A stretch of DNA of 64,000 nt, taken from assembly GCF_003003995.1 (NCBI RefSeq), contig NZ_PVWF01000009.1, positions 1 through 64,000 of the forward strand, written 5' to 3'. Positions 32,978 through 35,212 of this stretch are shown in pieces. Origin of the DNA: Pleurocapsa sp. CCALA 161. Its GTDB lineage: Bacteria > Cyanobacteriota > Cyanobacteriia > Cyanobacteriales > Xenococcaceae. Positions within the stretch are counted from its first letter, which is position 1. Every line of letters starts with the position of its first letter. A model generated the notes under the pieces. It searched no databases, was not told the DNA's origin, and was given only the letters and a program-made list of their open reading frames with translations. Made by a program: the position numbers and the translations under genes.

Positions 32978-33943
32978 ATGAATAATAACTGGGAACCGTC
33001 ACAAATTGAGAACAAGATTGGCATCAATTTTAAATACGATCAAACTCTCCGCCTAGCGTTGATTCATCCGTCCTATGCCAAGCTAATTAAAGAGCCTGAA
33101 ATTAATAATCAGCGTTTGGAACTTTTAGGGGAGAATATTCTCAATTTAGTTTTAGTAGACTATATTTACTGGAATTTTTCTCATTTTCAGGTAGGCAAGC
33201 AAAAGGCATTGGTTAGTAAGTTAACCGAATCAGAAAGATTAACTAACCTTTGGTACGATTTGCAGTTAGGAGAATTCTATCCATTTTTAGATTTAAAAGA
33301 AGAACGTCATCGTTTACGAGTCAAACCAAGTAATCCCTTTGAACAGGCTTGTAAAGCTTTAATTGGCGCAATTTTTATCGATCGTGGTTTTACTCAGACG
33401 CGCAATTGGTTACAAAAACGGCTGATCATACCACTGCTCAAACGTTATCTTAAGCCTGAATTAGAACATACCCCCTCAGATAAACAAATCCAGTTTTTGG
33501 GAAATACTTTACTCCAGGCAATTGTCGTTGATTATTTATATAAACAGGTTCATTTAGCTAGTCCCAGCATCTTAAAATCTTTGGCGCGAAAACTGACGGC
33601 TAAAGAAACTCAAAGCGAGTACTTGAAATTATCTGATGCTGCTTGGTCAGATCTATTGCCTCAACAGACAAAACCCAAACCCTACACAGCTTTACTCGCA
33701 GCAATATATCTACATTTTGACAACGACAACAGTAAATCTAGCTTGCGTAAAACCAGTACTTACTTTGCTCAAAACTGTCTTGATGATGATGAAATTATGG
33801 CACAAGCGATCGCTTTACTGCTTAAAGAGGGTAAACCGCAAAAATGGATTATTCATAAAGTAATGAATTATGCCAACAATCAATATAATGAAGGTCGCGA
33901 AAAATACTACCAGCTAATTGGTGAATCTGAAGCCGATGTTTAA
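32978..33943 (+). CDS. tandem degenerate RNase III domain protein
   Basis: A 321-residue protein built from two RNase III-like folds. The first (about 10-150) keeps the helix QRLELLGENILNLVLVDYIYW and KALIGAIFIDRG, aligned with the catalytic NERLEFLGD and DTxEALIG of RNase III. There the glutamate of NERLE is Q, the aspartate of LGD is E, and both metal ligands around EALIG are Q and K. The second fold (about 165-255) has QIQFLGNTLLQAIVVDYLY and TALLAAIYLHFDND, also lacking the acidic residues. No double-stranded-RNA-binding domain is present. It is therefore probably a non-catalytic RNA-binding or ribosome/intron-related pseudo-nuclease; that role is inference. It is a single gene starting at ATG. 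Confidence 0.8.
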   Translation: MNNNWEPSQIENKIGINFKYDQTLRLALIHPSYAKLIKEPEINNQRLELLGENILNLVLVDYIYWNFSHFQVGKQKALVSKLTESERLTNLWYDLQLGEFYPFLDLKEERHRLRVKPSNPFEQACKALIGAIFIDRGFTQTRNWLQKRLIIPLLKRYLKPELEHTPSDKQIQFLGNTLLQAIVVDYLYKQVHLASPSILKSLARKLTAKETQSEYLKLSDAAWSDLLPQQTKPKPYTALLAAIYLHFDNDNSKSSLRKTSTYFAQNCLDDDEIMAQAIALLLKEGKPQKWIIHKVMNYANNQYNEGREKYYQLIGESEADV

Positions 33944-33962: not shown

Positions 33963-34235
33963 CTAATTCTGATGGCGATAATCACCACAGCCAATCGCCT
34001 GTTCTGTATTAGCTACCGAAGGATTTACCGTACATTTAAGGTGGTAGTCTCCTGTGAAAAAGCGACACTTAGTACAGGGGATTTGATGCATTCTTTTGGC
34101 TTGAGCGATTACATCCAGGATGCAGCTAATTAGACTCCAAGCACAAAGACTAAAAATAGAAAAAGCTCCAACGATTCGAAGTTGAAGCAGCAATGGTTTG
34201 AATAGACTTGCGGAATTAATAGCGAATTGAAACAC
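33963..34235 (-). CDS. conserved cyanobacterial protein with membrane helix and Cys motif
   Basis: A 90-residue protein starting at GTG. A hydrophobic span (about 19-45) is followed by the cysteine-rich tail MHQIPCTKCRFFTGDYHLKC ending IGCGDYRHQN. The four cysteines (CxxC, then C, then C) could bind a metal or form disulphides. The tail wording is conserved in other cyanobacteria in my memory, where it is unnamed. It is convergent with the RNase III-like gene, with a 19-base gap. Confidence 0.7.
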   Translation of the reverse strand: MFQFAINSASLFKPLLLQLRIVGAFSIFSLCAWSLISCILDVIAQAKRMHQIPCTKCRFFTGDYHLKCTVNPSVANTEQAIGCGDYRHQN

Positions 34236-34321: not shown

Positions 34322-35212
34322 TTAGATACGGGTCTTAATAATCTGAAATATTTGCATAATTTGCTGCTTGTTAAATGTTTTCAGTAAAGCGATCGCTGCA
34401 CCTTGAGGATCTGTGGGAATACTCACTGTACTAGCAGTAGTACTACCGCCAACAGTGCCACCTGCCGTAGCTGCCAACTGCTGAAGGTTTTTACTAGGAA
34501 CAAGCTGTTGTGCTTGACCAGCGTTTAAATAATCGCCAGCCTGCTTAATTTCTTTAATTACTACCTGAGCGATTGTGTTGTAAGGATATTTTTTATTGGT
34601 AATCGCTGTTTGGGTGGTGGCAATTAGATTTTGCCAATTGGCTTCATTAGGGGCAATTTCTCTCAAGCTTTTGCAGCATAAATGTAGCTTTTGACGACTT
34701 TCTGGACTGTCAGGCTGTTTGAATATCTGAAGCATCTGCTTGAGTATTTTGGTAATTTGCTGACCGATATCTGCTTGACCTGAAGCACTGCCTGAGAGTA
34801 GTTGCTGGAGATACTGATCTAAAAGGGCAAAATTCGATTCTGATTGCTGCAAAATTTCTACTGCATCAGCATCCTTAAAATCAGCAGAGTTTTCTAAACG
34901 TTCAATTAAATCTTGAAGATGATCGTAACCGTTAAGAAATAAAGTTTCTAACTTTTGATCGACATCAACAGGATTGTCTTTCAAGATTTTAAAAGAATCT
35001 TCGAGACGATGAGCAGTTTTTTGAATACTAGTGTAGCCTAACATAGCAGCACCACCCTTGACAGAATGAGCAGCGCGAAACATCTCGTTAACAGTCTCAG
35101 TATCCTGTACCGACGTAGCTAGCTGTAGAATTCCTTGCTCTAATGTTTGCAGATGTTCTTTTGCTTCTTCGATAAAATATCCGAGAATTCTCTGTTGATT
35201 AGCTGTATCCAC
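34322..35212 (-). CDS. Hpt-domain phosphotransfer protein
   Basis: A 296-residue protein. The N-terminal Hpt domain (about 5-110) has the phospho-acceptor H49 in FRAAHSVKGGAAMLG. The remaining 180 residues are helical with no kinase, receiver or CheW domain; they include a Gly/Ser/Thr-rich linker (AATAGGTVGGSTTAST). It may relay phosphate between an unlinked kinase and a receiver such as the one at 30855-31415; this is inferred. The start is GTG. It is a single gene. Confidence 0.85.
   Translation of the reverse strand: MDTANQQRILGYFIEEAKEHLQTLEQGILQLATSVQDTETVNEMFRAAHSVKGGAAMLGYTSIQKTAHRLEDSFKILKDNPVDVDQKLETLFLNGYDHLQDLIERLENSADFKDADAVEILQQSESNFALLDQYLQQLLSGSASGQADIGQQITKILKQMLQIFKQPDSPESRQKLHLCCKSLREIAPNEANWQNLIATTQTAITNKKYPYNTIAQVVIKEIKQAGDYLNAGQAQQLVPSKNLQQLAATAGGTVGGSTTASTVSIPTDPQGAAIALLKTFNKQQIMQIFQIIKTRI

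Follow-up and report, generated by a model that had tools for sequence, protein, structure and literature searches.

What does a cyanobacterium do with a protein that carries the fold of ribonuclease III (RNase III) twice in one chain and has lost nearly all acids of its catalytic sites? This question is raised by a gene of Pleurocapsa sp. CCALA 161, which is located in the stretch of 64,000 nucleotides analysed here (the window). The open reading frame at 32978-33943 of the forward strand starts with ATG and encodes a catalytically degenerate tandem RNase III-fold protein of 321 amino acids, an assignment based on the frame itself, Pfam matches, an AlphaFold2 model and orthologues. In the class scheme, as outlined in excerpts of PMC7827160, bacterial RNase III and yeast Rnt1 possess one domain and homodimerise, while Drosha and Dicer pair two domains internally. 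Overall, we somewhat favour as the best explanation that the window protein is a single-chain RNase III pseudo-dimer with a decayed first site, which would grip RNA without cutting it.

The first-pass annotation of the window had proposed two RNase III folds in this protein, and the proposal was borne out by Pfam searches with the separate halves, by profile comparison and by structural matches. The whole protein reached 79.2 and 54.5 bits with PF14622 and PF00636 (cut-offs 35 and 27), which places it in the RNase III fold superfamily. The first domain (residues 6-157, positions 32993-33448, forward strand) matched PF14622 with E = 7.5e-18 and PF00636 with E = 8.8e-10 when searched alone, both above cut-off. 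The second domain (residues 158-266, positions 33449-33775, same strand) comes without the first three helices of the fold. Alone, its PF00636 match stayed below cut-off in the window protein (E = 0.0028), and the second halves of two orthologues were found above it (E = 1.2e-10 in L045 and 1.2e-7 in L041). Furthermore, hhalign aligned a profile of 23 second halves with a profile of 23 first halves at a probability of 99.3 and E = 1e-20, and in an alignment of the window protein with 23 orthologues from named genomes (A2) all 24 members matched both RNase III models at E ≤ 1e-2. The Pfam scores of the halves together with the match of one half to the other argue, at the level of sequence, that the chain carries two RNase III folds well beyond chance. 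Searched over 388 genomes, the half-2 profile also picked up the first halves of these proteins, as well as shorter frames resembling ordinary RNase III.

The absence of a dsRNA-binding domain stated in the annotation agrees with the searches. With Pfam, dsrm was matched neither by the whole protein (E ≤ 1) nor by its parts (E ≤ 10, where the HMMER filters hide most matches above 0.1), and as a positive control the same library found dsrm in both ordinary RNase III proteins of the same genome. Neither a helicase nor a PAZ domain was among the Pfam matches of the window protein. With TIGR02191, the equivalog model of class I RNase III, it scored 90.4 bits, below the curated cut-off of 166.25, and with two domains in the chain it differs from Mini-III, which is defined by a single RNase III domain and no dsRNA-binding domain. 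It shares two RNase III domains per chain with class II (Drosha type), while the C-terminal dsRNA-binding domain and the catalytic acids of that class are lacking; the layout of RNC1, i.e. two RNase III domains in one chain without catalytic acids, is present.

The predicted structure supports this layout. The AlphaFold2 model of the whole chain, built from 24 sequences, has a mean pLDDT of 91.9 and a pTM of 0.90, and its best structural matches span both halves together: Drosha 5b16 (Z 21.9, 271 residues aligned over model residues 1-320, 3.9 Å), Dicer 7zpi (Z 20.4, 255 residues, 4.7 Å) and DCL3 7vg2 (Z 20.3, 244 residues, 3.3 Å). Half 1, with model helices at residues 7-157, superposes on E. 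coli RNase III 7r97 (Z 19.2, 146 residues, 2.3 Å) and on Aquifex RNase III 1i4s (Z 17.5, 143 residues, 2.7 Å). Residues 158-321, i.e. half 2 with the C-terminus, were modelled without half 1 at a pLDDT of 88.5 and a pTM of 0.79. Foldseek found no match to this model at E ≤ 1e-3; its top rows were RNase III folds with a best E of 0.011. VIA-align superposed the same model on the yeast mitoribosomal chain 3j6b_5 (Z 9.8, 123 residues, 4.4 Å), on Mini-III 4oun (Z 9.3, 96 residues, 2.6 Å) and on Aquifex 1i4s (Z 8.6, 98 residues, 3.2 Å); on Mini-III bound to the 50S subunit (6tnn_H) it reached Z 9.2 (97 residues, 2.5 Å), and rows within 1 Z of each other count as tied. Such Z values are modest for a helical model, hence the claim of an RNase III fold in half 2 rests equally on the sequence profiles. 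A viral structure library was uninformative, with two rows at E ≤ 1e-3, both annotated as ribonuclease 3. The suggested intramolecular pseudo-dimer is thus backed by prediction, as one model aligns over both halves to Drosha and DCL3, and the halves are predicted to pair internally as in Drosha and Dicer.

The matches of the second half lead to a different explanation, in which the protein would be a ribosome-bound structural or assembly protein like the inactive RNase III folds mL44 and mL57, with a fixed site on 23S rRNA or a precursor stem. Here, the best match of the model of half 2 plus C-terminus is the mitoribosomal chain, tied with Mini-III on the 50S subunit, and the Pfam model of the mL44 endonuclease domain was matched by 18 of the 24 aligned members at E ≤ 1e-2 (best 5.7e-12; mL57 reached only E 0.17). 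However, both ordinary RNase III proteins of the same genome match the mL44 model as well (E about 2e-5), hence the mL44 matches reflect the shared fold, and we dropped them as a hint to the ribosome. Moreover, no match to the gene was found in 330 of the 388 sampled genomes of the order, which argues against a general ribosomal part. mL44 and mL57 carry one RNase III domain per chain. As permanent proteins of the mitochondrial ribosome they differ from the window protein, the likeness being the presence of RNase III folds in a ribosome and the profile and structure matches. We regard such a ribosome-bound structural or assembly protein as unlikely and keep to the single-chain pseudo-dimer that would hold RNA without cutting.

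Beyond the two folds, the annotation had overlooked a conserved C-terminal helical module at residues 267-321 (33776-33940, forward strand), which forms three helices in both the whole-chain model and the model of residues 158-321. Its motif is QKWI-x6-Y-x4-Y-x2-G, and among 57 orthologues I278, L281, Q288, K289, W290, I291, Y298, Y303 and G306 are each at least 95% conserved. QKWI is exact in 54 of the 58 orthologues, reads KEWI in L118 and L119 and QKWL in L116, and is absent in L120. Pfam assigned nothing convincing to the module (best E 0.028 for UIM in two of 22 members, none in the window's copy). When 40 relatives were searched with it, strong matches appeared in the 15 genomes which carry the gene; in genome G028 two weak matches (E 5e-4 and 3e-3) lie in short frames near contig starts. 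With a predicted pI of 4.7 the module is acidic, whereas the halves are basic (9.3 for half 1 and 9.1 for half 2); from this charge difference a protein partner appears at least as likely as RNA to be bound by the module.

For the catalytic sites, E. coli numbering was assigned from the LG[D] and EAL-G motifs in the alignment. In half 1, E38 is replaced by Q45, D45 by E52, D114 by Q123 and E117 by K126 (codon 33353-33355, forward strand), and E41 is kept as E48; in half 2 the five equivalents are K169, Q172, N176, K234 and T237. The claimed loss of the acidic metal ligands therefore applies in full to half 2, with none of five left, and to four positions of half 1, where one of five, E48, survives, a point that the annotation had not made; the intact acids of class I enzymes are missing. 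The family was represented by 58 distinct orthologous sequences, obtained from 105 HMM hits (E ≤ 1e-40) in the frames of 122 loci after removal of identical or contained sequences, a 97% identity filter removing none. The equivalent of E117 is K in 39, R in seven, E in four and another residue in eight of them, and thus lost in 54 of 58. The D45 and D114 positions drift, with ten different residues each. The E41 equivalent is E in 42 and the E38 equivalent in 30 orthologues, and half 2 retains at most two of the five acids in every one of the 58.

The structural matches include entries titled as the Aquifex E110K mutant with dsRNA; we take Aquifex E110 to correspond to E. coli E117. The E. coli replacements E117K, A or Q (rnc70) are listed in Table 1 of PMC8708148 as abolishing cutting in vivo and in vitro while dsRNA binding is kept. 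Judged by its residues, the window protein is most likely unable to cut RNA. Some weak or different activity may persist, with E48 kept and the E41 and E38 equivalents often being E in the family, and a still active nuclease that cuts one strand slowly or uses other ligands has to be weighed. E48 speaks for it, as do L120, whose half 1 has the full set of five acids, and L118 and L119, which keep three acids including the D114 and E117 equivalents. The E117 position speaks against it, lost in all but four orthologues and Lys in the window protein, where the corresponding E. coli mutation abolishes cutting (again Table 1 of PMC8708148), and so does the poor state of half 2 throughout the family. 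An active enzyme appears to us highly improbable, and a non-cutting pseudo-dimer remains the preferred reading.

The loss of catalysis claimed in the annotation thus holds for the window and nearly all orthologues, and fails for L120, one of 58, whose complete set of acids in half 1 had been named beforehand as a finding against the claim. As L120 has this set, 'dead' fits an end state of the sequences and not the whole family.

Purifying selection acts on the gene. Nei-Gojobori dN/dS ranged from 0.064 to 0.207 across 13 hand-chosen pairs, some of which share a sequence, three of which include the window and two of which have a dS above 1; in 12 of the 13, half 2 had a larger dN than half 1. 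Positions conserved in at least 95% of 57 orthologues (L120, which lacks the module, was left out) number 35 of 152 in half 1, three of 109 in half 2 and nine of 47 in the C-terminal module. The fixed residues of half 1 include W92, P102, R110, N119-P120-F121, D135-R136, W144 and K147, and the five catalytic positions are all absent from this list, so that selection on the gene concerns something other than the catalytic acids. The turn D135-R136 (33380-33385) is kept in 56 of 58 orthologues, the rows of ordinary RNase III showing D and then another residue; its conservation suggests a new conserved contact. For the 58 orthologue frames we predicted a median pI of 8.9, with 43 above 8 and five below 6.5. 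dN/dS and basic charge are no proof of RNA binding, and in its acidity the C-terminal module differs from typical modules of this kind.

How the acids were lost can be followed within the family. In L120, from genome G136, half 1 is complete in its five acids, and the protein scores 183.4 bits with TIGR02191, above cut-off, as does L118 with 174.6 bits. L118 (G064) and L119 (G086), which share the family code f12, keep the equivalents of E41, D114 and E117 and have lost those of E38 and D45. L120 lacks the C-terminal module, and by eye no remnant was seen in the three forward frames downstream. This absence raised doubt about its orthology, which was set aside on the gene order: in G136 and G064 the tandem gene lies downstream of the same two genes, encoding a lipoprotein-like protein (60% identical) and a SagB-type protein (75%; the SagB name was assigned for the G136 copy only), and this common pair supports the orthology of L120. 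This arrangement, with a lipoprotein-like and a SagB-type dehydrogenase gene ahead of the tandem gene, lies at L123:345-4816 in G136 and at L124:4095-7842 in G064. In G136 a frame of 178 amino acids on the opposite strand intervenes between these genes. The tandem proteins of G136 and G064 are 48% identical.

A quick tree of the orthologues, in which long branches including L120 were flagged, was rooted on ordinary cyanobacterial RNase III. The base of this tree is a fork of L120 and the cousin proteins without a resolved order; L118 and L119 attach to the remainder at a support of 94, just below the starred level, and the other 55 rows group at 96. Since the syntenic L120 has five acids, the first site apparently decayed inside the family. 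When single domains were placed in a tree, nine cyanobacterial RNase III domains separated from a group of the two halves and the cousin proteins (support 99/97), which fits an internal duplication, with a fusion as the other conceivable origin of half 2; the branching within that group is not settled (AU p about 0.1, one long branch flagged). According to the sequence comparison, the first site of the tandem ancestor was probably functional and its second site already poor, and the first site would then have decayed in most of the sampled family, typically by E117 to K or R. In a wider scenario, to which we give not quite an even chance, cyanobacteria invented a Drosha-type single-chain RNase III separately from eukaryotes by duplication and then stepwise made from it a non-cutting RNA holder that has a C-terminal module of its own and would be the functional counterpart of RNC1 in bacteria. 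As part of this scenario, living orthologues would record the steps, with L120 as intact first site, L118 and L119 as part-decayed forms and the dead majority. The origin separate from eukaryotes may be read from the distribution, the tree having covered the two halves, the cousin proteins and the nine cyanobacterial domains.

Order-wide, 58 of 388 genomes from 24 of 149 genera match at E ≤ 1e-30, 56 near full length and two in part (G136 and G219), and in a phylum-wide sample ten of 386 genomes match, all in the same order. All 13 genomes searched from the window's own genus carry the gene, as compared with 0 of 14 for the other genera of its family. Named carriers (23 loci) include Pleurocapsa, Myxosarcina, Waterburya, Prochloron, Coleofasciculus, Kastovskya, Symplocastrum and Spirulina. 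Tandem proteins of the RNase III fold were also noticed in another, distant group with the family code f2: L029:1165-2928 (G058) encodes 588 amino acids and ends in NACHT C-terminal helical domain 2 (PF22727, E 1.6e-21), and L022:1213-2238 (G027) encodes 342 amino acids, with a first half that by eye on the alignment keeps the E117-type Glu and not the other acids. Similar matches were seen in other f2 genomes, in frames of roughly 340 or 600 codons.

The tandem gene is additional to the standard RNase III set and does not replace it. Synechocystis 6803 and Anabaena 7120 each have two RNase III genes and one Mini-III gene, according to excerpts of PMC10989914. The window's own genome encodes two RNase III proteins of 254 and 248 amino acids above the TIGR02191 cut-off (220.2 and 185 bits), each with a dsRNA-binding domain, and a Mini-III-like single-domain protein of Mini-III size (133 amino acids) without an NCBIfam name. 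At least four PF00636 matches were counted in 36 of 38 carriers versus five of 38 non-carriers, where a carrier may count twice, once per half; the carriers range from three to seven matches, and G149 and G152 have only three. This coexistence with other RNase III genes speaks for a further explanation, in which the protein would regulate ordinary RNase III or Mini-III negatively or act as a partner, through mixed dimers or substrate competition; by binding without cutting it would compete with them for shared stems. Judged from the superposition, the predicted internal pairing of the halves would occupy the RNase III dimer surface, which makes mixed dimers unlikely; competition may still take place. 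We rate such a regulatory role as improbable and continue to prefer the self-paired RNA-gripping protein.

The neighbourhood gives no guidance to a partner. When the proteins of 24 loci (the window and 23 named genomes) were clustered by similarity, no neighbour family occurred in more than seven of 24, that one being a response regulator, and hence none is indicated as partner. The next most frequent families were found in six of 24 loci, those close to the window's locus; the tandem gene itself clustered in 23 of 24, with the L050 copy in its own cluster. One family present in six of the 24 loci comprises the gene adjoining in the window (33963-34235, reverse strand), which encodes a cysteine-containing protein of 90 amino acids with no Pfam or NCBIfam match. 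The 296-amino-acid product of 34322-35212 (reverse strand) resembles CheA over the first 126 positions of the latter (NF007835, E 4e-18, far below cut-off) and is probably a stand-alone Hpt-type protein without a kinase part.

A parallel in layout is found in plastids. RNC1 is described as having two inactive RNase III domains (passages of PMC8708148 and PMC9275481), and, in the parts of PMC9275481 that deal with it, as a protein without endonuclease activity which binds RNA in vitro and promotes splicing of some plastid group II introns. The window protein has the same domain layout, and the annotation had accordingly named intron work as one of its possible tasks, i.e. a group II intron splicing factor as bacterial counterpart of RNC1. 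The genomes disfavour this as sole role. The GIIM maturase domain showed no association with the gene among 42 genomes (14 of 26 carriers, 8 of 16 non-carriers). The window's own genome has no GIIM and a single RF00029 match below the gathering score, and in four single-contig carriers (G198, G207, G241 and G259) there was neither a GIIM nor an RF00029 match at E ≤ 1e-3. That group II introns were not detected in these carriers speaks against a role confined to introns; the RF00029 search covered ten genomes, and G110, with no GIIM yet one clear RF00029 match, indicates that maturase-free introns occur. Such a splicing factor is in our estimation very unlikely. As a separate observation, the 3.8-Mb genome G042 contains at least 99 GIIM matches and at least 150 group II intron matches; one GIIM match falls in an open frame of 24270 codons, probably a run of masked bases.

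RNC1 of maize, Arabidopsis and tomato resembles the window protein in its photosynthetic setting and in a chain with two RNase III domains, whose inactivity is reported in the portions of PMC9275481, PMC11241334 and PMC8708148 concerned with it. RNA binding is reported for RNC1 in the same portions of these sources, a property which the window protein may share. RNC1 is encoded by a nuclear gene, has a divergent N-terminus and works on group II introns together with partners such as WTF1, whereas the window protein is encoded by a bacterial gene, has its own C-terminal module and occurs in carriers without detected introns. No molecule named RNC1 was among the 46 PDB sequences matched; shared ancestry of the two is possible. 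Drosha and Dicer (class II and III) likewise have two domains in the chain, and the model superposes on them over both halves, but the window protein is bacterial, has lost the acids and shows no Pfam match to a dsRNA-binding, helicase or PAZ domain. Bacterial RNase III and Mini-III share the fold, half 1 superposing on the E. coli and Aquifex enzymes; according to excerpts of PMC7827160 and PMC10989914 each of their chains carries a single RNase III domain and the enzymes homodimerise, whereas the window protein combines two unequal domains with degenerate sites and no dsRNA-binding domain was found.

The single-chain pseudo-dimer would thus work as follows. Double-stranded or strongly folded RNA would be held in the valley between the halves, as in E117K-type mutants, and the C-terminal module would replace the dsRNA-binding domain or dock a partner. 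By analogy with these mutants, binding of RNA without cutting is plausible. As its likeliest role, the protein might then chaperone, protect or help to assemble a structured housekeeping RNA without cutting it. Precursor rRNA may come first among the candidates, since such folds serve on rRNA in mitoribosomes and in the form of Mini-III.

The window protein joins a Drosha-like layout with RNC1-like inactivity in a bacterium, and what is new is that an architecture known from eukaryotes is found here in bacterial and mostly dead form; among the top-ranked matches in openly licensed literature we found no paper on a bacterial tandem RNase III. A shift from RNA cutter to RNA binder has been proposed for proteins of plastids and mitoribosomes. 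The cyanobacterial family, in which relatives have reached different stages of catalytic loss, represents a small system for this transition, in which intact and dead orthologues are directly comparable in vitro.
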